A stretch of 64,000 nt of DNA, from contig NC_049980.1 of assembly GCF_000003815.2 (NCBI RefSeq), forward strand, positions 17,711,154 to 17,775,153, given 5' to 3'. The notes below the pieces were generated by a model, which did not search any database, was not told the origin of the DNA, and was given only the letters and a program-made list of their open reading frames with translations. The stretch comes from Branchiostoma floridae (Eukaryota > Chordata > Leptocardii > Amphioxiformes > Branchiostomatidae). Made by a program: the position numbers and the translations under genes. Every line of letters starts with the position of its first letter. Positions within the stretch are counted from its first letter, which is position 1. Below are positions 14,653-54,800 of this stretch, piece by piece.

Positions 14653-15588
14653 GATTTAGCCCCGCCTGTTGTAAGCTCCTCGCAATTCAGCCCCTGGCTG
14701 CAAAGAGTGAGTAGTCGGCCCACCCAATAACAATATCGTACCGATTGTCTTATCCAGAATATTAATATTTTTAAAAATTGCATAACGCTATATATGGATA
14801 TATGGATGCCTTTAATGATTAATCTATATCTGATTATGACAACCTAGCAACAGAGATGGGCTATGCTTCATATCACCCCCATTAAACTCCTTTTCCGCCG
14901 TACGCATAAACTATCCACATACCCGCTAAAAAATCTCTGCGTACCCGCTAGGCTCTGCGTACCCGCTAAAAAAGCTCTGCATACCCTAAAACTCTCCACG
15001 TACCCGTCCCTTTCCGCCGTACGAAACAGCCGACACCCGCTCGGTCACAGGGCATACTCACACGAAAGTCGCATCTAATTACCCTGTACGGCAACGATAC
15101 ACGGTCTCGCATAGCCTATGCTATCGGAAACATTCCTGGCCACCTCTCTGCCCAGTGGCGTTGTACAAATCGCGCCAAATCCTGAGAACACTTCTGCAAA
15201 CTGTGATGAGAAGCGGTCTGTTGAGAAGCAGATATCCCGCGTAACCAGGAAGTGACAATCGTCTGTGGTGATAAACTTGATTTGTACCCGTTTCAGCACG
15301 CAGAGAAAATTGCTGCCAACTTTGAAGGTTGATAAAACGTCAAGTCAACTTAAACTATCCGGTCTTACAGGCCACTAGGAACAAACGGTGACAACTATCG
15401 CCAGTTCATAAGGATAATATATAGTGTCTACTGTCTGTTCACAGCCAGGGGTCTTTGTGGGTCTGTACACAGGGGTATACTAATGGAGGGTGACGTGAGA
15501 TAAAGGGCTAGTGGACCCAACCATAGTGGAATTATGTTTTATGGCAATGTGTGGTGATTTGATAAGATTGTATGTAGCACAAATATAC

Positions 15589-15835: not shown

Positions 15836-16450
15836 AATGAGTGCAGATAGAGATTCCCACCACCAGTAAATACATATGAACATCCCCCAACACCAGTGAT
15901 CACAGGTGAAGATCCTCAAACACCAGTGATCACAGGTGAAACCCCAAACACCAGTGAATACATATATAACATGTGAAGATCCCCCAACACCAGTGAACAC
16001 ATGTGAAGATCCCCAAACACCAGTGAATACATGTGAAGATCCCCCAACACCAGTGAATACATATGAACATCCCCCAACACCAGTGATCACAGGTGAAGAT
16101 TCCCCAACACCAGAGAACACGGGTGAAGATTCCCCAACACCAGTGAATTACATATGAAGATCCCCCAACACCAGTGAACACAGGTGAAGATCCCCCAACA
16201 CCAGTGAAGGCATGTGAAGATCCACCACCACCAGTGAATACAGGTGAAGATCCACCACCACCAGTGAATACAGCCTACAGGTGAAGATTCCCCAACACCA
16301 GTGAATTACATATGAAGATCCCCCAACACCAGTGAACACAGGTGAAGATCCCCCAACACCAGTGAAGGCATGTGAAGATCCACCACCACCAGTGAATACA
16401 GGTGAAGATCCACCACCACCAGTGAATACAGGTGAAGATCCCTCACAACA
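15836..16450 (+). repeat. 30 bp minisatellite with higher-order structure
   Basis: About 20 units of roughly 30 bp with consensus 'caccagtgaacacaggtgaa' plus 'gatcccccaa'. A block at about 16127-16266 is repeated at about 16288-16436, a second-level duplication. As 30 is a multiple of 3, several frames stay open on both strands; the plus frame reads a repeating TPVNTGEDPP decapeptide. Unit drift and lack of gene signals make coding unlikely. Units have no spacers, so it is not a CRISPR. Confidence 0.9.
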
Positions 16451-18940: not shown

Positions 18941-20230
18941 TTTCCGTAGCGCGTAATCGGCGGTTTTAATGCATTCTACGTACTCCGTAGCGGGACAGCT
19001 CGAATTCAACGTAGAGCGTAATCGGTGCATTTTGCTTCGAGTGATATTGGCCCCTTTAATTTAACGTATTACGTAGAAGCTAACCGGATTTTACCGTAAA
19101 ACGTAATTCATATGAATTGTTCGTAAAGCATAATCAAACTTAACTAGTCTACCGGCAAAGTTTACCCGTGAAAATGTATGAAATTGCGTCTCAAAGTGTC
19201 CAGATTTCAAAATTTCGCCGGACCTTCCTTGCAATTGGCTCACCCCTTCGGCAGTGGACATGGTGACAATATGTTGCGGGACCCGTCGGCTCCCAACTAG
19301 TAGAGATTTCTTTACCTAACTTAGCTTATTGAACAAGCAAATGTGCAGGAAATGGCATTTGAGGGGGTCAAGATTTCAATTTTTTCTCTGGGCGGGCCTT
19401 GGCCTCTGTGCGACGGCTTGGGCCTCCGGCGCTCACGACTCTCCAGCGCTCGTCGCCCTCAAAAACTTCTCTCTGACAGAAATGTCATTACATTGAGCAT
19501 ATAGTCTGCCAGCAAAATTTGTCCCTCTAAATGCAGGAAATGGTGTTTCAGAGGGTACAAATTTTCCCGTACGTAGTCTATGTAACACAAACTCCGCTGT
19601 CCAGGGCTGTAACTGGCCCCTCCCCGCGGAGGGCCGGCGGATGATTGGCGGGCTGCTATAAGCGAGATTTAATCAGGCTATCCCGTACGTACCTTGCGAC
19701 AGTTCGTGCTTTCACTAGTTTCAGCGCTGGAAATCTGAAAATGATGTTTGGGGGCGTTGTCCTCAACAGCTTAAGCTAAAACCATGTGAATTTCTAATTG
19801 AAATGCCATTCAACTTATCTTAGCCTGTGAGCAAAGTTTGCCCTTCAAAATGCAGAAATAGTGTTTCAGAGGGTCAAGATTTCACAATATTCCCGGGGGA
19901 GCATGCCCCCGGACGCCCCTAAGATTGTCGCGCCTCCGCTTTCGATGCTACAAGTGCTGAAAATTACGTCACATAAGAAATTTGCTGTCGCCTCCTCGGC
20001 CAGCAAGACGGGCGCTTTTATATCGTGTAAGTAGCTGTTTGAATCCTGTTGATGGAATCATAAGTTCAAGTTGTTAGATCTCCTCTTCACGTGTTCTGCC
20101 GTCGGTGGAATTCAGCCAAATTACGATAAAGATTTGCATAATGCATTTGGAAACTTCGTAATTTAGCGTAGAGCGTAATGAAGCGTCCATAATTTAGCGT
20201 ATTACGTAGCCGGCCCTCCCGAATTTAGCG
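18941..20230. repeat. repeat complex with AATTYAMCGTWRAGCGTWA motif arrays
   Basis: Degenerate copies of a ~20-bp motif ('aattcaacgtagagcgtaat', 'aatttagcgtagagcgtaat' and others) cluster at 18941-19140 and 20150-20230. Between them a ~60-bp module ('atgcaggaaatggtgtttca' then 'gagggt') recurs about four times (near 19160, 19340, 19510, 19830). The same motif and module occur in the other orientation at 26672-27262. No transposase was seen. The right side enters a gap. Confidence 0.7.
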
Positions 20231-20283
20231 CCCAGCTTTCCGGGTCCCCCCCCCCCCCTTGGGGGCCCTCGTAGATTCACAAA

Positions 20284-20578
20284 NNNNNNNNNNNNNNNNN
20301 NNNNNNNNNNNNNNNNNNNNNNNNNNNNNNNNNNNNNNNNNNNNNNNNNNNNNNNNNNNNNNNNNNNNNNNNNNNNNNNNNNNNNNNNNNNNNNNNNNNN
20401 NNNNNNNNNNNNNNNNNNNNNNNNNNNNNNNNNNNNNNNNNNNNNNNNNNNNNNNNNNNNNNNNNNNNNNNNNNNNNNNNNNNNNNNNNNNNNNNNNNNN
20501 NNNNNNNNNNNNNNNNNNNNNNNNNNNNNNNNNNNNNNNNNNNNNNNNNNNNNNNNNNNNNNNNNNNNNNNNNNNNNN
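20284..20578. other. assembly gap (295 N)
   Basis: A run of N directly after a poly-C tract and repeat-rich sequence. Confidence 1.
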
Positions 20579-21097
20579 ATGACATCAATTGCTCCTGCAC
20601 ATGCTCTACACAAATCTAAAAGTCTACAGTTCAAAAGTGACCAACATTTTATATGGACATAAGATTACATCAACCAGTTTCCGCTGATCACCATGATAAG
20701 GTTGTGTTAAGTACTGATACATCTGATTTAGGACTTCTGGTCCGTTTTTACATCCAACACCAACACTGGAGCCGAGGTGATATAATACCAGCCTGATTAA
20801 CTGGCACTTATAGCAGTCCGCTACTGGCACCCTGCAGGGATGGGCCCATTTGAGCCCCAGTGGTGTTCACCTTACACAGACGTCATATTATGCTGAATGA
20901 TCTGATGTGAATACAATGTACAAAACATCAACTTCTTTATAATGTGAGAGGGGATAGTCAACACATAATTTCAATATGAAAGATGCTTAAAACACTGTCA
21001 GGTAATCCATTTTTCCAAAGAAAATAACATGACATCTCAGTGAACTATTGCTTTATTTATCCTACATAATAAGTATAACAAGACTGTCATTGCTTGG

Positions 21098-21426
21098 TAA
21101 GGCCATGTTGACTTGATTATAGGGTTGACATCAATTTCCATCTGTTTCCCAAAAAATGTTTTCAACCATAGTGTAAATCATACAAAGCAGCTGCAAAAGA
21201 AGAAAATATATGCTAGCTGTAGATTGCTGTCTTAATACCAATGTCAAAAATTAAGTTTGTTGTTAAGCAGATCTCTACCATATTCTGCATGTTTTAGACC
21301 TTCCTGACACTTAGATCACATAATGAAGGTAACTTTTTTTTGGTCAAACTTTTTTTAATCACACACTCACATTAGTTTTGGGCTTCCCTGATATGTCATC
21401 CATATAATAAAATCAATATGGCCTAA
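21098..21426. mobile_element. MITE, 'TAAGGCCATGTTGA' family
   Basis: The left end 'taaggccatgttgacttgat' and right end 'atcaatatggcctaa' are inverted repeats of about 30 bp, 329 bp apart. Same family as 8027-8831; here uninterrupted. Confidence 0.75.
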
Positions 21427-21985
21427 TGATAATAACCAAATGAGTACCCTAAAGCCAGTAGTCTAGTTAGCTGAGTACCACTTGTAATAATGCTTATTGC
21501 TTTCAAAACATTCAGAATTATTCAGAATGACTTCTACAAACACAGATGAACTTTGAAATTACTAGTATGCTTTCAAAAATATTCAGCATCATATGCCTAA
21601 AACAACAGTGAAAGTCAACAAGTTTTTCACAGCACACACATAACAACATTATACTTGTCACATTAAAAGGTCTCACCTCAAAATACATACTCTTCCACAA
21701 ATAGAACTTGCTTTGAGCATCCATATATCAAAATACATAATCTATACAAACATTGTGTATTGGGCAAAAATATTTCAATGGTTTGGTGGAGACAGCCACA
21801 GTTAATTCCTCACTTTGTCAGCCCTAAAAGTTTGAATATCTTTTCCTATTACCATGTATCAACCACATTTTTGTAACGTTTAGTTTAATAACCCTGGTCT
21901 CCAGTGAGTTAATAAGTATTATGCCATTAAATCCCAAAAGGGAAGTCATACTCCAGTTTCCCACCAGACAGCCACCACAATAATA

Positions 21986-22103
21986 AAACCATGTTGATTA
22001 GATTATATGGATGACATCCTCTGGGAACCGCTGAACTGATGTGCACATGCAAATAAAAAAGTGTCGTTTCGAAATCTAAATGTCAGGAAGGTTGAACAAA
22101 TAC
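21986..22103. mobile_element. MITE, same family, running into a gap
   Basis: 'aaaccatgttgattagatta' followed by 'tatggatgacatcctctggg' matches the family's left end and subterminal region. The right end is hidden by the 100-N gap at 22104-22203. Confidence 0.65.
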
Positions 22104-22203
22104 NNNNNNNNNNNNNNNNNNNNNNNNNNNNNNNNNNNNNNNNNNNNNNNNNNNNNNNNNNNNNNNNNNNNNNNNNNNNNNNNNNNNNNNNNNNNNNNNN
22201 NNN
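22104..22203. other. assembly gap (100 N, nominal size)
   Basis: A run of exactly 100 N, so the real size is probably unknown. Confidence 1.
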
Positions 22204-22338
22204 ATCAGACCCATCCATATCAGACTCGGGTGATCAGATCCATTATCTCCTTGATGAAACTAACAAAAGATCAGATGGCAAAATGACCACTACATTTTCA
22301 CTTTCTCAGCCAAAGACTGTCAGTTTAAAATGTGTTAA

Positions 22339-24595
22339 TCAGAAGCCTGCCCAGTCGCTGATTTCTGAGTCTTCCTCCACGTTGACTTTCAGACATCGGA
22401 CGCCCTCCTTCAGCAGAGGGGTGCCCTTCCCCTTGCCCATGATTCTGGCATGCAGCTCCACAAAAATCTTCTTAGTGACATCTTCTTCTGTTGTCAGGAA
22501 GAGCTCCTCCTGTCAAAGATAAACAGAAGTGCAGTTAGTGGAATGGCATCCTCTGCAATCAATATCTCAGTATATACCACTTGTTGAAAGATTGTTCCTA
22601 CACCTAAAAATTGTTCCTACACCTAAAAATAATCAGGAACAGCTTCTGCTTACACCAAATGTTCATTCAATAGGATATATAATAGTATTGATCTGTTTCA
22701 AAACTTCTGCTTAAAAAAAATAGGGTTACAGTTTATACCTTACATAAATCATGGCAGAAAGCAATATATGAAAAATGCCAAATATTATGAAAAAAATGGG
22801 CCCCTTTCGTCAGGCTCAGGTCTGTTTGCGGACTCTGTCTTTGACATTTTTCTACCATGTGTGAATTCCATAAACTATCGTTTATTTATCAATTGAAAAC
22901 CTTCAAGTATTGGAATTCACTTGAGAAGCTTGAGACTAGGACCTTGGGCAACCTGAAATGTTTATGGGCAACCTGGTACTGGGCAACCTCAAAAAAGTAT
23001 TCCAAATCTTTTTCTTGTGTCATCTGAGCATTTCGCTCTTTGTCGCAGTATGTGGTCATGTTTGAAACAATCTTGCATAAAGTGACAGGTGAAACAAGTA
23101 ATCTCACCTTCACAACCCCATCCTTCTCTGTGCAGACCTCTAACACTAAGGTGTGGCTGTCCTGTTGGTTCCCCTCTGTGTCAGTGTTGTTGTCTACGTT
23201 GTGATGAATCTCCTTAATAGTGAAGTAAACACTCTGCAGGGGTGGGGCTGACAGACTGGGTCCGAAGCCGTGTCTGAGGGTGAACTTGGCCTGGTATGTT
23301 CTGTGGATCTGTTTCAGGTGCAGTAAAACACATGGAGAAGAATTAGATTAAAAATGAAATACCACCTTTTAATTACTCCATAATGAATTGGGTGGGCAGG
23401 CAGCACTCACAGCACTGTAGAGATACATGAGCTCATAATAGCATGGCTACCAGGCTACATCCAAAATGGATTGCTTTGAGTTATACAGGAAGCAGCTGTT
23501 CTGATTTGCAACTAGCAAACCTATTACATGGTAAGTGCTTTGACATTTACCAGCCACTTGACATCACAGTATGCCGTATAAAATGTCAACACTCCGAGCT
23601 TCCATTGTTTGTGTTTCTGCAAAGGGTAAATGACATTCAGCTATGGACATGAGAACTTTGGCAAATATATCACTTGCATGTTGAATTTCAAGCCATATTT
23701 GCATGTAATATTGGTATTCTAGGCAAGAACGGCAGTTGTACCATCTACTCTGATGTAGACATTGCAGCTTAACAGACATGTTTCTTCACAACACAGTATT
23801 GTAACCCAAAACGTCTGAGTGGCTCCATGAGCCTTGTTTTGTGGTGAACTCTAAGTAAATAAAATAAAAAAAGCTACAAAATAATGCTATAGAAAAAAAT
23901 GGTGAAACAGACATTAATAATGCTTTTGATTTCTTATGCAAAGAATTTATATAGCTGGATAAAATAATGCTTGATGCCTTCCATAAGCATTAAGGCACAT
24001 TTTGTTTCTTGTACAAATGTACCTTCTGACTCTGATTGACAAGTCGAAAGAAACATTACTATGGTAGGCAAAAGGACATTCTCTCTTCATACAAGCACCT
24101 CCAAATTAGGCATGACAAAATTCAAACAGTAACAAACATGTGTGATAAAGATTATTTTCTCTACTGTTCTCAAGTGGTCAGCCTGAGAAATGCACTTCAG
24201 CTATCTTCATGTAAGCAATCCAGCAAAAATGTACATCAGGTCTGTTCCAATACAAAAACATGTACTAGGACTAGCTAGCCAGAAGATGACAGAAAATTCA
24301 CAGGTACATATGAAGAGACATAATAACTGACTTGTAGGAAGCCCAGGTTGACAGAGAAGTGGTCCTGGTCAGTCTGTGTGACCCGCAGCTCAGGCCCATG
24401 TAGGTCGGCAGGAAAGTGGACGTGTCCAGCAGGCGGGTGACCATGTTTGTGGGTGACCACTGTCGAAGATTCTTCATCGACTGGACTCAACTTTTCAGCT
24501 CCAAACTGAACCTCCCTTGCAGGCTTCTTCAAATAATTTTCTGCAGCTTCATCTGTCTTCCCTTCTTCCGAGAACTGTACTGCAGTCTTGGGCAT
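22339..24595 (-). CDS. ADISSP: ADISSP/C20orf27-like protein, downstream copy (complete)
   Basis: Exons (minus strand): 24332-24595, 23108-23308, 22339-22509, all phase 0, giving 211 residues (human is about 174). The signature N-terminal part 'HVHFPADLHGPELRV' then 'NLGFLQ' resembles human HVHFDEKLHD and VGFLK. Exon 2 ends 'EKDGVVK' and exon 3 begins 'EELFL', as at the human KEGVLKEEILL junction. The C-terminal exon has 'RIMGKGKGTPLLKEGVRCL' and ends DSEISDWAGF, close to human RVMDRHHGTPMLLDGVKC and DSEHSDWHGF. The family (UPF0687) has been described as adipose-secreted signalling protein; no catalytic residues are known to me. The ATG at 24595 is preceded by an in-frame TAA, supporting a real start. 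The N-terminus has no obvious signal peptide. Confidence 0.88.
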
Positions 24596-24643
24596 CTCTT
24601 GGCGGATCTTTTACTATGTCTTCATCTGTGCCCACACACTTCA

Positions 24644-24768
24644 NNNNNNNNNNNNNNNNNNNNNNNNNNNNNNNNNNNNNNNNNNNNNNNNNNNNNNNNN
24701 NNNNNNNNNNNNNNNNNNNNNNNNNNNNNNNNNNNNNNNNNNNNNNNNNNNNNNNNNNNNNNNNNNNN
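24644..24768. other. assembly gap (125 N) between the two ADISSP copies
   Basis: A run of N exactly where a third exon of the upstream ADISSP copy would be expected. Confidence 1.
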
Positions 24769-25132
24769 CAGCAAAGATTGGTTATTTTGTCTTTTACACA
24801 TGACAAATGTAAAAATATCAATCATTTTTCATTATGGTACAATAAAACCTCCAGCTGCTGAAATGTATTTATTAGGCGGGGAACTTTCACCATGCTATTT
24901 TGCCTAAGTCAAAAGCTGGACTGCTGGGAAGAACGGCCAAGGCCTACAGAGTATTTGCTAGACAAATAAAGGTTATTCATTCATCCATTCAATACATAAT
25001 CCCCATGGGCTACTTAGAGGTTTTTCATCAACATAGTGGGATACCTCAAAATTATGTGCCAGATGAAATCTGGCTTTGGCCTTTGAGTTTTGGAAATAAT
25101 AAAACTAAAACCCAACCTTTACGAATACCTAC

Positions 25133-28125
25133 CTTGCAAATGCCCTCTGTAAGAGGATGAATCTCCAGGCATACAGAGTGGCTGTTGGGTTTCTCCTCCC
25201 CTTCTGTTGTCTGCAAACTGACCTCCTGTATGGTGATGACTTCAGAGTTCTGCAGGGGAGGGGCACACAGCTCCCGCCCAAACTCATGCTGCAGGACAAA
25301 CCGTGCCTGGTATCTGCGATGGACCTGTGAACAACATGATCACCTCAATTATTATACCAGAGAAGGGCTCTCTCCAGGGTGCGTGGTGTCTTTCTGTAAC
25401 AAAAATTGTAACCATTTCCTCTCCTTTGCCGGACACAAAAATCCATATTTTATGACATGTTTTCAGGTTGTCAACAGTGCCACAAAACGTGCTAAAATCA
25501 AAGTATGTCAATTTGTTCTTTATAAATGTAGCATCCAGTATCCAGGCTAAACTGAGGCCATGCTGATTCAATTTCCTGGCTCTCAGATTTTGCATCTTGG
25601 CTAAGTCACTTAGTAAGTGTTAACATGAAATGAAATGAAATGAAACATTGGAAAATTGAGATGGAAGAAAAGCTGGCCAATTAGCCAATCAATGATGAAC
25701 AGCATATCCATTTAGGCAAAGAACAGAGCTATTTGTAATCAAATGTATGCTTACAGTAGATTGGCAAAACAGAGAACAGACATTCTGTGATCTTTAAATG
25801 CAATGATATTTTAATTTGAAAACAAGTCTGTGCAGGTAGACACCAGAAATACCCGCACATATCCAATTTATCGTGCACTCACCTGCATATGCATGTGATA
25901 TTTCAAGCCCTAATTGTACTCACTGCTACTCATTTGTCTGACATTTTCAATCAACATTGAATTGTTTTTCTTGTGTAGGAAATGGAAACGTCAATCATCA
26001 TTACATTTGCCCTTGAGTCCTCAAGCTTCCACTTGACTAACTTACTAGTAGTGATATTGGAAAATTGTAATGGAAAATGAGGTGGCCTATCAGCCAATCA
26101 GCATGTAAAGATAAAGGCAAAAGTGTGTAATCCTATGAAATAGGAATCCTAAATTAATGCTAGTAATTAATATACAGAATTAGCAGTGCAAAAAGAAATA
26201 AAGAATGGGATCTTAAACACATAAGATATATTATATAGCTGCATCAATAGTTCATTATATATGGCAAGTGTTGTGTTCTAACTTACTTATCAAGCTGCAT
26301 GCTTCTACACAGGAATATTGGAAAAGGACAAAACTACATGTGTATTCAATCCCATATGAAACTGGTGCAAAATCATCTTTACTCAAACCAGGATGATTTT
26401 GCACCAGATCCATACGGTTGCCCTGATGTGTATGACTGATATGGATAAACTGCCTATGACGATGATGGGACTTAAAGTTCAACTGAACTCTATTACTGAT
26501 AATAGTGATATACCCACTTCATCTTCACCAGAAAATATGACACTTTCCCTTACACCTCACAGCAAGTCAACATTGAAGTATTTGCTGTTATTTGCATGCT
26601 GGTCTGCTATGACCTTCGTTTTTGTCCATGTCCGTTTTTGTACATGGAACATGAGGGTCTGCATGGGGGGTTCTTGGTAACGCTTAACGGTGAAATCAGG
26701 AGGCCCGTTAACGCTCAACGGTAAATTCAGGAGGACTATTGACATTAAAAATTGTCAGCGCTTGGACCGCCGAAGGGGTGATACGTCCCAGGGCAGTCTG
26801 CGGGTATGCCCCGCCGGGAATATCTTTTTAATCGTGACCCTCTGAAACGCTTAATTTCCTGCATTTTTTGCCAAAATTTGCAGACAGATTAATGTCATTT
26901 TGCCTGAAACTAAGCTTAGTTTCCCACTGAAATCTGTATACAGGCTTTTGAGGGCGACGGTTCCGCAACAATTTTTTTCCATGTCCAGCGCCGAAGGCCG
27001 GGAGGCTCGGAAAAATTTTGAAATCTAGACCCTTTAAAACGACATTTCCTGCATTTTCAGAGGCTCCATCTGGCATGTAACGTGTTACGAAGAATTTCTT
27101 TGTAACGCTTAACGGTGAATTAGGGATAACAAATAACGATTAACATTGAATTAAAACAACCAATAACGTTTCACGAAGAATATACCGATAACGCTTAACG
27201 ATGAATTAGAGCGGGTCGGTAACGCTTAACGGTGAATTAAAATGGCTCGTAACGTTTAACGAAAAAAGGCATGCAGGCCCTCTAACATTAGTGACATGTA
27301 ATGGTATTTTAGGAATAAGATATTAATGTTATGCATTGTGGAATAGTCTGAATAGCATTAATTTTTATAAAAGCGAAAATTGTCTTTTCCTTCTATGTAC
27401 AGAGAGGAAAAGATTTTATTCCATTTCGTTGCTGCTGTTGGGTTATGCAACTGGGGGTACCTGTGTACATGTAACATTAGTGACATGTAACGTTAATGTT
27501 AGCAGTCGTTAATGTTTATCAGGAATGGACTGTGGAATAGCCAGCATTTCTAAAAGTAACAGCGAAAGTATGTAATATAAATGGTCTTTTCCTTCTCTGC
27601 AGTTCTATGCAAAGAGAAAAAATATATTTCATTTCGTTTCGTTGCTGCTGCTGCCAGTGCTGGGTTATGAATGCAACTGTTGGCCTGTAAAACTGGATCA
27701 ACAACAATCTGCCACCCATGACAGGTGGTAGCGCGTAGCGTCACGCTTTTAACAACGCGCAGCTATAACGTCCTTGGCCAGAGGTCCTTGGCCTCATCAA
27801 CAACGTTAGAAGGTACCTGAAGGAATCCAACATGTACAAAGAAACCGTCTGGATCGACGAGATCCACATAGATGTCGGGTCCGTGCACGTTCCGATCGGG
27901 GAAGTGAACGTGAACGTCAGGGTCGTGGTGGTGGCCAGGGCTCAAGATGGAGGAATTCTTGGTCTGTAAGGACCTCATGGCGTGCACACAGTCGCTGGGG
28001 TCCCCTGTGATTTCACCGTCGTTTTCCACGTTGGTTCGCGCCTTTTTGGATGCGTTGTCACCCTGTGAGTCGTGGGAAATCTCAATGAGCGGTGAACTTC
28101 TTTTCGTTGCGTCGTCCTGTTCCAT
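25133..28125 (-). CDS. ADISSP: ADISSP/C20orf27-like protein, upstream copy (3' part not seen)
   Basis: Exons (minus strand): 27817-28125 (103 codons, ATG at 28125, context caacaATGg) and 25133-25324 (64 codons), phase 0. Exon 1 carries 'DVHVHFPDRNVHGPDIYV' then 'HVGFLQ'. Exon 2 'VHRRYQARFVLQHEFGREL' parallels 'IHRTYQAKFTLRHGFGPSL' of the downstream copy, and 'CAPPLQNSEVITIQEV' parallels 'SAPPLQSVYFTIKEI'. No counterpart of the C-terminal exon is visible between 25133 and 24596. It could be in the 125-N gap, or this copy could splice to the shared terminal exon at 22509 (phase 0 fits). The first exon is in a CpG-rich region, divergent from PPP1R42 by about 890 bp. Confidence 0.82.
26335..26435. 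repeat. hairpin-forming inverted repeat
   Basis: CTGGTGCAAAATCATC (26362-26377) and its exact complement (26392-26407) are separated by 14 bp. Weaker pairing extends outward to about 40 bp per arm. It lies in the first intron of the upstream ADISSP copy. Confidence 0.7.
26672..27262. repeat. second copy of the motif-array repeat complex
   Basis: The motif 'taacgcttaacggtgaatta' recurs at least eight times with variation (26680-26730 and 27080-27255). It flanks an internal part ('cctctgaaacgcttaatttc' then 'ctgcatttt') that is the reverse complement of the module in 18941-20230. It lies within an intron of the upstream ADISSP copy. Confidence 0.75.
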
Positions 28126-29014
28126 TGTTGACAAACAAGATGTTCTACGTAAGGGATCTGGTCACATGTATATGTAGCACGTCCGCCACCTCAACCACTA
28201 ACTACCAGCCGAATCCAACTTGAACCAGTACTGAGCTTCATACCATTACCGCCAGGGGACGCTGTGATACCACTACGACCTCTGACCCGGTTGCCATGAA
28301 ATCTTTCCGCCGTGGCAACGTTATTATTTGCACCACGTGACACCAGATATCCCGTTGGCCTTATCACCCTTCCCTCACTAAGTTAGATATACATCCGTAT
28401 CAGAAATATTTGAACATTTTATGGAAAATATTGACTCGGAATAATATTTGAAAGAAATTATTTTCGTGTCTAGAATGATCAACATAATGAGAACGTTCCT
28501 TACACGTGTTTCTCACCTTTTACTGTGGTACTATTTTGTTGAGGGATAAGGCGGGAAGTGAGTGGATCGGTTTAATCGAGTATTTCGTTAGCACGGGCGG
28601 AGGTTGGTACTCTGACAGGCAGGAAAGTGGGGTTATATGAGTAGAATGTTTGCTTAGGGCGTTTTGGGACGATTTGTGTTGCTGAAGAAGTCAAGGACGC
28701 GTGGCTTTGTGACGGTTACGTGACAGGAAACAGGCTGAATCTCGTCCCGTGCGTTGTTTTCGTGAGATTTGTAGTACGTGCCCTCCCACAGGTCCGATCG
28801 TCGGACATGTTGACGGTCGGAGGAAATCGACCATAAACACACCTGACTCTGATCCGCGTCGTGTTCTCACCTGTCTTCTTATCCTCGACATGTCAAGAAA
28901 CCACTCACCTGGATAGACAACCTTGACCGCTACAGGGAAGGCATACACTCTCGTAAGGCAACGGCACTGTTGGCAGTGAAGTTCATATATTGTTATAAAA
29001 ACTTATTTTCAAAC
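28126..29014. promoter_or_regulatory. divergent ADISSP / PPP1R42 intergenic region
   Basis: About 890 bp separate the ADISSP upstream-copy ATG (minus) from the PPP1R42 ATG (plus). The ADISSP side is CpG-rich. 'GTTGCCATGAAAT' at 28290-28302 resembles the first half of an RFX X-box, and 'GTGGCAAC' follows at 28311-28318; the spacing is not canonical. The minus-strand open frames at 28654-28948 have no recognisable product. Confidence 0.4.
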
Positions 29015-37023
<8,009 letters not shown>

Positions 37024-39786: not shown

Positions 39787-42245
39787 CTACCCAGTTCTAA
39801 GTATGATATGGATGCCGGAATCAGTGAAGACTGGCTCACTCAGCTCACCCACTTTCAGCTTGAAGGTTGCCTCTTCAAAGGGCTTCTGCATTTGGCCTGG
39901 TCCGAAGAAGCCGAGATCCCCACCCTTCCTGGCTGAGCTGCAGTCACTTTCAGTCGCTGCCAGGACTGCAAGAGTCACCTCGCCAGACACGATTCTTTGA
40001 CGGAAATCTGTGGGAACACGATGAAATCAGGGCTCTAGCCAGCTCAAATTTTTTTTCCGTCAGCCAATTCCCATTGTCCCGAAAACCACGAAAATTTATT
40101 TCTCAAAGTTCGTAGAATGCTTGATAAGGACTTCCAGGAGTTAGAAAGACTGAACTGAGACCTTGAAAAACAGGTTTTTAATGAGATTATCGTAGGCAAA
40201 AGGACGCCGATACACATTGTCAACGATCATAACAATAGCAAAACAAACAGTGTGTAGCTTTTACGGCCGTGGACGGCGTCCCCAAGCCGCCTGTAGCTTC
40301 CATCAATGATTTTGTCCGTCAAGGTTGACGGATTGGTTTTAAAATTTTTCCGGCACGCGCAGCAAATTTCCGTCAATTGACGGAAAAACGTACGCTGGCT
40401 AGAGCCCTGGATGAAATACATAACAATAATGATGATTCCATTGACTGTCATATGAGGGGGTAGTCAGAAAACTTCCCCATACTTCCAGGATCCATTTCAA
40501 ATGTCATCTTCCTTATAATTATTAGAAACTGAAATTTTCAAGCACAAAGAGAAGAACAAGTTGGACTGCAGGGACTTATTTTGGTTCATACAGTAGCTTA
40601 CCATTAAGCAACTCCAGGGCTTCCTCCTGAGTGCGTGTTATCTTGTCCTGTTTCCAAGATGAAGGTCGTCTGGAGCCTACATGCTTCACCAGTAAGTGGG
40701 AACATCGCACCTGTGGGAGACAGTACCAAGTAGTCTCACAAACACTTGTCATCAATATCTTATTCTTTCATCTCTGATTAATAAAAACATTACAATGTGC
40801 TGTGGGTTTTCTTAAGAAGGGCACTGCACTCCCAGGCTGTAAAAAGGCACCCCCTTACCCAAGGAACAGTTTCTCTGACAAGCATAAAATTCAGAAACCA
40901 TTTAACCTACTAGGTCAAATACAGCTGCAGTCTTCAAGTTCAACTGTGACCTGACTGTAATTTTCCACTCTAAAGAATCCTCAGATCAGAATATTACCAA
41001 CATTTTTTTTAAGATTGTCAAACTCCACCATGAAGTCCAAAAATTGCCATTATGTGCCATAGCCCCCAACAAACTGCCATAGCTGCCAAATACATTGTTG
41101 CAGTCATAGTACAGTACTAGTCTTACCTGAGATGTTGCAGCATCTGTAGGCTTCTCCCACTGACTTTGCTTTGTATGCACATTGAGATAGTAAGCTCTCC
41201 CTGCATCAGTGTAAAGCAAACAGCATTGTTCAGATGTGATAAATACTTGCAGTAAGTTACAAGTATAGTTATTGATCTTACCACATAAGTACGTTTCTGA
41301 GGCAAAAAAAAATGTCTTACCACAACAAGAATGCTTTTAGTCCAATATTTCAATGCACACACTTTTATGATACCACAGAGGTTTCACATACCAATCATGT
41401 TACCAACATGTTGAAGTGGTTATATTAGGCAGACAAGGTCTACCAGTAACTGCCACTCTAGTACCTTACTTCTGGCCAATACACTTGAGTTGTAAAGTAT
41501 TCAGCCCCATGTCTACAACTTACAAGTTTATTTATACATGTGTATAACATTATCATAAACTTTCCTTGCTTCAAGTAACAATGCATAGAAAGATGTCATT
41601 TTAATTTCCGACTGGTGCAAAGTTGGTCCCGACCAGTCAGTGGAAATTACTGTGTTCAGGCAAACCCGTATTAGCAGCCACCTTTGTATAGCAGACACCT
41701 GGCCATAGTGGCCACTTTTTGTCGGTCCCTTGGATTCGTAATGATTAAGAAATAGGCTTAGCGGCCACCTGTCCAACACGGCCACACGATTTCCGGTCCC
41801 GTTGATACAGAAACACTGCGTATTTCGACCATACTGCAGCCTTATGTCACCCTGCGAGGATTTAGAGTTCCTAACAGGGTCATTTTGGCGGTAGCAGAAG
41901 GTATACATAATGCATGCCTTGAGCATGAAATTGCAAGTCTTTGTTGGGGAATTTACCGATCGAGACAATGTTACTTGGTGAGAAAGATTAGTGGGAACCG
42001 AAATCATGTGTAGCTTGCTCATGGTCAATTGATCAACATTTTCTCTATAGTGGCCACCTGTCTATAGTGGCCATATTTTTCCAGTCCCTTGAGTGGCCGC
42101 TATAGACAGATTTGACTGTACTCATAGCTCTATTGGACCAGACTCTGACCAGTGATTAATTTTTTTTGGAATAAGAAGTTGCCCAACCCTGGCTCTTGCT
42201 GACTCTCTTCTCCCAGCCCTCTGGAAGGTCCTCCTGATCGCCCAT
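39787..42245 (-). CDS. PIN1: PIN1, phospho-specific peptidyl-prolyl isomerase (4 exons)
   Basis: Exons (minus strand): 42188-42245, 41127-41200, 40602-40710, 39787-40007; 462 nt, 153 residues plus stop. The WW domain ('[10 protein letters not shown]', '[17 protein letters not shown]') keeps W11, Y23 and W34 at human numbering. The linker is 10 residues shorter than in human. The parvulin domain has '[17 protein letters not shown]' (basic phosphate-binding K53, R58, R59; catalytic-site H49), 'ESDCSSAR' with catalytic Cys103 (human C113) and 'GIHIILRTG' with H147. So the enzyme should isomerise pSer/Thr-Pro bonds in the nucleus. '[18 protein letters not shown]' replaces the human EEDFESLASQFSDCSSA, an altered helix. 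The first donor is GTTGGG, weak. A hAT insertion lies in the last intron, 20 nt from the acceptor. Confidence 0.95.
40028..40409. mobile_element. hAT MITE in the PIN1 last intron, 8-bp TSD
   Basis: 'CAGGGCTCTAGCCAGC' and its exact complement 'GCTGGCTAGAGCCCTG' bound 382 bp. GATGAAAT is duplicated exactly at 40020-40027 and 40410-40417. The interior has 'tttttccgtcag'-like and 'ccgtcaattgacgg' repeats. The element edge is 20 nt from the PIN1 exon-4 acceptor. Confidence 0.93.
41655..42120. mobile_element. DNA element, 'ACAGTCAAACCTGT' family, copy 1
   Basis: The right end 'gacagatttgactgta' (42120) and left end 'tcaggcaaacccgtattagc' (41655) are diverged inverted repeats. Many subterminal 'tatagtggcca' and 'ggccgcta' motifs lie inside. 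Inverted and better preserved at 62771-63337. It sits in PIN1 intron 1. Confidence 0.75.
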
Positions 42246-51821: not shown

Positions 51822-54800
51822 TCAGGATTCTTCAGGCACACTGTCCTGTCTTCTGATGGACAGAATGTGGGAGAAGGCCAAAACTGCTGCGCTCAGTAGG
51901 AAGCATGCTCCCACAAAGTAGAAGGATGCATCATAGCTGCCAGTTGTGTCATACAGGATCCCTGGAGAGAGGGGAGAACAGAAGTTGTTAACTGATGGGA
52001 ATGCATGAAACATTGACAACAAGAAGTAGTGAAAAACATCATACACACCCTTTGAATTGTTTATTGTGGCATCAAATGCCTAACTTGAGATCTCATCTCA
52101 TCACTACTCCATCCACTCAGGTGTAAAAATGGATACCTTAATTCAATTGGGGAGGTAAAAGGTGGAAAGAGGGGATTGGTTTCCGTGAGTGAGTCTTGCA
52201 TCAAATGCACACTTTTGTCTATGTTTGATGTGTATCATTACAGTCTTGAAGCTTTTCCTGTATACCTTTCCTGCACAAAGTAAATGTTCTGCTGATGGAA
52301 ATGTACTTCATCTGGATATAAAAACAGACCCACCTGCAGTTGGTAGTCCCACAGTCAGGCCGATACTGGTGATGAACATGACCATCCCCATGGCACTGGC
52401 GATCTTCTCCACTCCCGCCACGTCCACCACCAGGGTCGGGATGAGGGGATAGCACAGACCGTTGGCGAGTCCGTGCCACACTGCATAGGCTGCCATACCC
52501 GAATATGTCTCCGTCACCGGGAACACGACAGCGCCCGCTGCTATGATGACGTTCAGAGTGATGAACTGGAAAGTGCGAGTGCAGCCTGGGATTTTGGACA
52601 GGCCGCCAGATAACAGCCGCCCGACCAGATCGGAGATGGAGATGATGGATGGAAGGAAGGACACCTGGGTTTCCTCAATGCCTGCATGCTGTGCCCTGGG
52701 AACAACGCCGATCCCGGGAACAAGGTAGCCAAGGTGGAAGAGAAAGAACGAAATGCTGAGGAGCACAAATGGTACGCTTTTTATCAAGGATAGATCGAAT
52801 AGTGTGGTTACGATGGAGTGGATGGAGAGTCCTGGCTTTCCTGCCAGCTTGGTGTGAATAGTTGTCTCGTAAGTGAGTTGTGAGCTGAGTGACAGCAGTG
52901 TTTCACTTCTGGACAGGACATCCAACATCCTTTGGGAAGAGTACAACATCCTTCTTGACAAGGACATGCTGGACCTTGCCGGGCGGACGGCACGGACGGA
53001 GACGCTTTCGAGTTTGTGTGTCGTGTCGTCGTCAGTCATCTCAGGTATGCGGGGTAGAGACTCTTGACTGGAGGCTGGCTCCAGCAGTCGCAGACTGACG
53101 GCACCGATGGAACATTCACTAAAGCCTCGCTGGCGTTCACGTCTGACGTGCGGTACAGGAGCGCCTGGCACCGTTGGCTCTTGGTCTTGTGATATGTCAG
53201 TAATGTCCTCATATTCCTCCAAGGGTGCAGCGAGGTACGTTGTTCTGGTTGTGTCGTGGTGGTTGCTGTAGGCAGGATGGGAGGTCGCCGCTGAGGAGAG
53301 AGAGTCTTGAGAGATGTAGGTTTGTGACGGACCGCGGGCAGGTGGCACGTGTAGAGGTCTCATCAGCGCTGCAGCCACACACAAATGCAGAGTAACCCCT
53401 GCCTGCACGATGATCGCACCTCTCCAGCCGTACTCGTCGATCAGCAGCTGGAAGACTGGCGAGAAGATGAAGCCCCCTACTCCGGTTCCTGTCACCATCA
53501 TGGCGTAAGCCAGGTGGCGCTTTTCATGAAAGTACTGTCCAACAATAATGAAGGTTGGATTGTACACCAGTGCAAATCCGAGTCCTGTAGACAGGAATGG
53601 GAGTTTTAAGATGTTTAAAATGTTTTAAGTATTGTTTCTGTTCTTTTGATAATAATGAACTTCGCTTAGTGCCGCATTACAATTGATCTTGGAAACACAG
53701 TCTTGACTAGAGGAAAAGAGTATGTATACGCAAATCCAACTTTTGTACCTATTTGATACTAATAATAGATGACTTGATCTTAACANNNNNNNNNNNNNNN
53801 NNNNNNNNNNNNNNNNNNNNNNNNNNNNNNNNNNNNNNNNNNNNNNNNNNNNNNNNNNNNNNNNNNNNNNNNNNNNNNNNNNNNNATATAGAGGCTAATG
53901 TGTTGATGCACCTGTCTGAGCCCTTTACAAAGGTTGAATCAATATCGACATCGTGTGGATTGTTCACTAACCTGACGTAAGGCCCAAGGACAGATGCAGA
54001 TGAACTATGCTCGTGGAGAAGCTTGTCAAGAGAAGCCCCACAGCACCCACCACCCCGCCTATCATCACTAATGGACGAGCCCCAAATCTTCGGCACAGTA
54101 TGGAGGACACTAGACCTGGGAACATAAAAACTGTTTGCTTATACACGGTGGCTGGTATGTATTCCATGTAAACATGTTGATAGAACTATTAATGAAATTA
54201 ACAAGTTATATAGATTCATATAACCTCTATATTCTGTCTGACCTATAGATCGTTTTCACGTGACGTCACAGTCGTGTTAGAACGTTCTGTGAAAACGATC
54301 TATAGATTCTATACCTCTTTCCCCTAGACCTTTAATGAAAGGCGGTCTGCGGACCGATTTTAGCTTTCATGAATAAACAAAGGTTCAAACAAACAAGTAA
54401 TGATTTTTGATGGCGTTGATAGTAGCCTGCAACGATCTAGTCAGCATTTGCAATCCCAACCTGTCGGTGACGCTAGTACTAGTAAGGACCGCGGTCGACC
54501 TTGAATTTTCGATGAAATACAATTAAGCAGAAAGGTCCAACTTCTCCATGAATTTCCTAGTCGCCCAGTCTTTCTGAATAAATGTTGCCTTTCTCGACCT
54601 GTGTCAAGCCTTAGAGCATGTTGAGAACTTATAAAACATATCGATAGAACAGACTGAGTTCGCTCACATTGTGATCTCTTTTTTTTTTACTCGAAATAAA
54701 AAGTCAAATGACACGAAGCCGATTCAGTCGCGTTCATTTGTCAACGCCAACTAAACTGGTAGCATGAAACTGGTAGCATTACACTATTCGAATTACGCCG

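Follow-up and report, generated by a model that had tools for sequence, protein, structure and literature searches.

Mouse Adissp, a member of the ADISSP/C20orf27 family, is predicted to undergo non-classical secretion, and its secretion was reported not to be blocked by brefeldin A and monensin; the data on secretion and adipokine activity come from the mouse (PMC9741603). The human protein, C20orf27, has been reported to bind the catalytic subunit of protein phosphatase 1 (PP1), lowering the binding of PP1 to GADD34 (PMC7072304). A locus of this family in the amphioxus Branchiostoma floridae, read on the minus strand of a stretch of 64,000 nt (contig NC_049980.1, positions 17,711,154 to 17,775,153; hereafter the window), differs from that of mammals in that two tandem copies, A and B, are present. 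The first two coding exons are found in both copies (A1 and A2, B1 and B2), and the third (C3) can be read only once, beyond copy B. The locus is probably an ordinary tandem duplication, with the terminal exon of copy A lying in an assembly gap of 125 N (24644–24768) that separates A2 from B1. In the literature searched, no paper seems to treat ADISSP and amphioxus together.

Compared with vertebrates, B. lanceolatum is reported to have a greater abundance of tandem duplicates (PMC9673378). Copies A and B resemble ordinary tandem duplicates in that they are adjacent, lie on the same strand, and have the same intron phases. They differ from such duplicates in that exons 1 and 2 are found in both copies while exon 3 is readable once. 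If C3 were shared, the locus would be likened to the UGT1, GCNT2, and protocadherin clusters, where tandem 5′ modules are spliced to a common 3′ exon (PMC1885805). It would still differ from these clusters in having two modules only, of two exons each. One C3 is visible, and a gap lies between the modules. As to a promoter for each module, the criterion that these clusters supply, there is a CpG-rich domain at A1 and none visible at B1, where 125 bases are unreadable.

Exon Layout and Family Identity

In order of transcription the minus strand carries A1, A2, the gap, B1, B2, and C3. Copy A begins with A1 (28125–27817), a first coding exon of 103 codons with an ATG start and the donor CAG/GTACCT, followed by A2 (25324–25133), whose 64 codons lie between the acceptor CACAG and the donor AAG/GTAGGT. 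Beyond the gap, B1 (24595–24332) comprises 88 codons, again with an ATG start, and ends at the donor CAA/GTCAGT; B2 (23308–23108) comprises 67 codons and has the donor AAG/GTGAGA. Both second exons are in phase 0 at both ends. C3 (22509–22339), the sole visible terminal exon, holds 56 codons and a TGA stop and carries the conserved C-terminus of the family, GTP-L...DSE-SDW-GF; copy A has no readable third exon of its own. All five exon frames are open when the minus strand is translated, internal exon ends are GT or AG, and the junctions fall between codons. The initial annotation had described two pairs of exons 1 and 2 with a single third exon, all joined in phase 0, and its coordinates, frames, and splice sites are confirmed here. 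Splice sites were scored with frequency tables, and the scores rank sites within this window only. On this scale the donors of A2 and B2 stand in the top 0.4 and 0.3% of GT sites on their strand, and those of A1 and B1 are weaker (top 5.1 and 5.5%). The acceptor of C3 (score 7.72) is in the top 0.13% of AGs and that of B2 (1.85) in the top 6.6%; the A2 acceptor scores 1.98.

The Pfam family DUF4517 (PF15006, UPF0687) corresponds to the ADISSP/C20orf27 family; the human protein, in a provisional version of its sequence that serves throughout as the human comparison, scores 191.6 bits against the profile. The chain B1+B2+C3 matches DUF4517 at 126.6 bits and A1+A2+C3, with C3 lent to copy A, at 118.7 bits, both over profile positions 2–151 of 151 and against a curated cut-off of 27 bits; the identity proposed in the initial annotation thus holds for both spliced chains. 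C3 by itself reaches 71.1 bits (positions 95–151), and A1+A2 without it 34.1 bits (positions 2–92). B2 alone gives 14 bits, under the cut-off, and A1, A2, and B1, each scanned singly, had no Pfam match. Against the provisional human sequence, B1+B2+C3 aligns over 149 positions, of which 54 are identical. Taken in parts, C3 is identical at 24 of 56 residues without a gap (raw score 121), A1+A2 at 27 of 87 (raw score 90), and B1+B2 at 25 of 71 (raw score 100). The stretch preceding the word HVHF is longer than in the provisional human sequence by 29 residues in B and 43 in A.

Wider searches added no relatives. Scans of viral and prokaryotic contig collections, each with two peptide patterns taken from C3 or from the join of exons 2 and 3, confirmed none among 88 and 56 pattern stretches, respectively. 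A search of solved structures returned one match (E 0.56), taken as chance, Rfam gave 0 matches over window positions 15000–36000, and no paper on DUF4517 by name was found.

Age and Constraint of the Two Copies

Judged from their coding sequences, copies A and B are old paralogues, both constrained as coding sequences through most of their history. The alignment covers 136 codons, with 56 identical residues; identity by codon position is 0.56 at the first, 0.65 at the second, and 0.31 at the third. Fourfold sites are close to chance, with 7 of 23 in agreement; by the NG86 method the nonsynonymous distance (dN) is 0.58 and the synonymous distance (dS) is not computable. The exons of copy A are free of stops. 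In a neutral-decay simulation with substitutions only, 434, 84, 13, 2, and 1 of 2000 A copies stayed open at 0.1, 0.25, 0.5, 0.75, and 1.0 changes per site. The case for long constraint on A and B is that third positions are at chance, first and second positions are conserved, and open frames would be improbable under neutral decay. The protein identity of 56 in 136 and the chance-level third positions also rule out A and B as alleles, haplotypes, or recent assembly copies. Copy A, having long been a working coding sequence, should therefore have a C-terminus, though it may have lost its function recently.

A Probable Terminal Exon Within the Gap

Each exon was compared with the 64-kb window by tblastn at E up to 50. 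Among the matches listed, A1 pairs with B1 (47.0 bits) and A2 with B2 (49.7 bits). The self-match of C3 scores 115 bits; the match ranked after it has 20.0 bits (E 0.33), and this and all weaker ones are taken as noise. No second terminal exon is thus readable in the window, which bears out the earlier statement that the third exon is visible once. A diverged second C3 should have shown up, because C3 keeps 24 of 56 residues of the provisional human sequence and outscores both A1+A2 and B1+B2 in that comparison. Two look-alikes at the edges of the gap were dropped, one beginning KCVG for want of a profile match and the other, SVWAQ, for an in-frame TGA ahead of it.

The gap is the only place between A2 and B1 able to hold a whole terminal exon for copy A, and it lies in the very interval where the third exon of a tandem copy is expected. 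With nine gaps per 64 kb, simple arithmetic puts the chance of some gap in a given interval of 537 bases at about 8%, so its position favors a hidden exon. The nine gaps are 539, 295, 100, 125, 300, 417, 147, 100, and 100 bases long; because the lengths vary, with 100 both the smallest and the commonest (3 of 9), they look like estimates with a floor. The last readable bases before the gap look like an intron end, with a branch-like TAAC and a modest pyrimidine tract, as good as those at 2285 of 61466 positions, a weak test since it was chosen after the sequence had been seen.

Exons are commonly lost in the gaps of draft assemblies, and a terminal exon shared between old duplicates is rare. 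For this reason, a hidden exon is preferred here to a shared C3. We infer that the gap conceals the exon and that A and B are transcribed separately. Of these old ADISSP/C20orf27 paralogues of the minus strand, A lies upstream and B downstream, and in such an arrangement each would give its own mRNA of three exons and a single-domain protein of about 210–225 residues. C3 would be the terminal exon of copy B, and the true length of the gap would exceed 125 N to hold the exon of copy A. By analogy with mammalian ADISSP, the products may be small proteins that are secreted without a signal peptide, that bind the PP1 catalytic subunit, or both.

Several observations weigh against a hidden exon. 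As drawn, the gap is 125 bases long, shorter than the 171 of C3 alone, and it must also accommodate the 3′ end of copy A together with the promoter and the 5′ leader of copy B. Only 48 bases lie between gap and B start codon. No fragment resembling C3 was found in the 364 readable bases from A2 to the gap or in those 48 bases, either by tblastn or by Pfam on nine stop-free fragments. The CpG content of the locus points the same way: no CpG-rich promoter is visible at B1 by CpG segmentation (125 bases of the gap being unreadable), and in the 1275 readable bases around the B start 16 CpG are present, whereas a ratio of 1 would predict 59.6. The CpG-poor block across the locus also reads like a single methylated gene body, that is, one transcription unit entered from the promoter of copy A.

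The CpG Landscape

Two-state segmentation gave the same local result at three settings, a CpG-rich domain (26601–29100) that contains A1 and the start of a divergent leucine-rich repeat (LRR) gene and, next to it, an unbroken CpG-depleted domain (20301–26600) covering A2, the gap, B1, B2, and C3. Around the A start the count is 68 CpG, with 67.9 predicted for a ratio of 1. In the CpG-poor block TG/CA tends to be elevated, the outcome expected if methylated CpG had been deaminated. The CpG-rich domain is presumably the promoter of copy A. In the mosaic methylomes of invertebrates, as described for annelids, methylation lies in gene bodies and promoters are hypomethylated; promoters made up only 7.71 and 14.08% of unmethylated regions (PMC11292947). 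Being so minor a share of unmethylated regions in annelids, promoters need not account for the CpG-rich block here. A single unit is suggested if CpG depletion marks methylation of gene bodies in the germline; the same block fits a shared C3, and it also fits a pair of neighboring genes, both methylated, with a promoter of narrow extent lying in the gap.

Over the whole window, CpG-rich and CpG-poor domains alternate sharply, with observed/expected ratios of 0.03 to 1.16 per kb, a pattern that mosaic methylation would produce. Degenerate repeats of the type TAACGCTTAACGGTGAATTA (26670–27260) with very high CpG, the ratio reaching 1.89, lie in intron 1 of copy A. Elsewhere, a CpG-poor stretch holds a minisatellite (15856–16442) of about 19 copies of a 30-base unit, to which a period of 158 bases also fits.

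Alternative Readings of the Locus

The initial annotation offered three readings: an exon hidden in the gap, two 5′ halves spliced to one C-terminal exon, and a fused two-domain protein. The first is favored here, the second is kept as a less likely possibility, and the third is disfavored. Under the second, the locus would be one transcription unit in which A1-A2 and B1-B2, driven from two promoters, are each spliced to a common C3. The one terminal exon readable in the window agrees with this, as do the strong A2 donor and C3 acceptor. A2 joins C3 in frame, in phase 0, and A1+A2+C3 covers DUF4517 positions 2–151 at the 118.7 bits given above. The CpG-depleted block, which at all three settings runs from intron 1 of copy A past C3 without a CpG-rich break at B1, likewise suits a single unit, although a pair of methylated genes lying next to each other, with a hidden promoter of narrow extent, would leave the same depletion. 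Weighing on the other side, the gap sits exactly where a private exon would be, a transcript joining A2 to C3 must skip B2 despite its usable splice sites, and the arrangement, being rare, starts from a low prior. A fuller version is somewhat more doubtful still: an old locus in which a promoter-proximal A1-A2 and an internal B1-B2 would share the strongly conserved C3 and yield two ADISSP isoforms that differ in their N-terminal halves, one with and one without a motif of the PP1-docking type. A small signaling protein would then have a design in the manner of UGT1 or GCNT2, with modules of two exons.

The probability left by a hidden exon and a shared C3 is spread over splicing of A exons to B2, truncation of copy A, a C3 located outside the window, and further possibilities. 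It is improbable that transcripts from the A promoter join A1-A2-B2-C3, skipping B1, or A1-B2-C3, so that A2 and B2 both enter the transcript or replace one another. Splice scoring found no good acceptor ahead of or within B1, the acceptors of B2 and C3 are usable, and phase 0 is kept, so that simple exon definition predicts such a product from any A transcript running into B. Against this, duplication of the middle segment would be likely to disrupt a compact domain, nothing speaks for joint use of A2 and B2 although constraint acts on each, and copy A would have to lack a terminal exon of its own. Slimmer again is the chance that the terminal exon of copy A has been lost, so that the gene ends within intron 2 and encodes a truncated protein with a tail of 26 residues. 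The frame does stay open for 26 codons beyond A2, to a stop at 25054–25052, and is followed by AATAAA, a poly(A)-type hexamer (24873–24868). Such hexamers are common here, with nine AATAAA or ATTAAA on the minus strand in 20000–28200; the strong A2 donor has been retained, and C3 contributes a large share of the family match (71.1 bits by itself, compared with 126.6 for all of copy B).

A fusion A1-A2-B1-B2-C3, for which all junctions are in phase 0 and a weak AG inside B1 (first exon base 24373; score −1.5, equaled or bettered by 27.5% of AGs on the strand) could be joined in frame to A2 at the cost of the first 74 residues of B, is very unlikely, as the frame entering B1 from the gap meets TGA, TAG, and TAA before the B start codon. 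The last two of these stops, at 24616–24611 just 5′ of that codon, block an in-frame fusion by this path. Downstream of them the ATG is preceded by three AGs of poor score (−9.97, −7.58, and −10.23), equaled or surpassed by 93.5, 81.1, and 94.1%, respectively, of all AGs of that strand.

The N-termini of Copies A and B

The earlier suggestion that the copies may have diverged in localization or secretion is weak in that form. The N-termini of A and B do differ, but both lie outside the Pfam match. No hydrophobic stretch resembling a signal peptide occurs in the first 48 residues of A or B (maximum mean hydropathy over nine residues 0.23 and 0.27), and different fates driven by signal peptides are not indicated by these sequences. 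In lacking such a start the two copies are like mouse Adissp, which is reported to be secreted non-classically (PMC9741603).

A single concrete difference between the N-termini was observed: the loose form of the RVxF pattern matches a word, REVQF, ahead of the domain in B (residues 27–31; 24503–24517 in the B1 frame) and has no match in A. Of 20000 shuffled B N-termini, 687 hold a loose match; in A, F and W are absent from the first 71 residues, so shuffles of A are uninformative. In the provisional human sequence a comparable word, RSIRF, precedes the same HVHF. We infer that an RVxF motif would be tied to binding of the PP1 catalytic subunit in the ADISSP/C20orf27 family, and from the sequences it may be guessed, weakly, that B keeps PP1 docking and that A has lost it. 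A stricter RVxF pattern picks HVHF in both A and B but misses REVQF, so the REVQF motif should be given little weight. In the literature searched, no paper was found that joins C20orf27 with RVXF.

Neighboring Features

The Pfam scan of neighboring open reading frames (ORFs) covered 10 of the 158 in the window. The divergent LRR gene lies on the plus strand (28853–33000) and starts about 0.9 kb from A1 in the same CpG-rich domain. Two of the four ORFs scanned there match LRR_4, one at 39.3 bits and the other at 20.3 bits, under the cut-off of 27, and the start of the gene resembles PPP1R42. On the minus strand, an ORF at 33284–33919 has no Pfam match at 0.01 and contains what is presumably a reverse-transcriptase-like phrase, an ORF at 40989–41336 encodes a WW domain (32.6 bits), and a long ORF at 52311–53624 encodes an MFS transporter (80.2 bits).

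Implications for the ADISSP/C20orf27 Family

If C3 were shared by both copies, the locus would be a compact example of a partial duplication that makes alternative 5′ modules, and its two N-termini would provide a natural test of the role of the ADISSP N-terminus, be it in PP1 docking or in secretion. If the locus is a plain tandem duplication, the reading preferred here, Branchiostoma floridae would have a second ADISSP-like gene that has long been under constraint.

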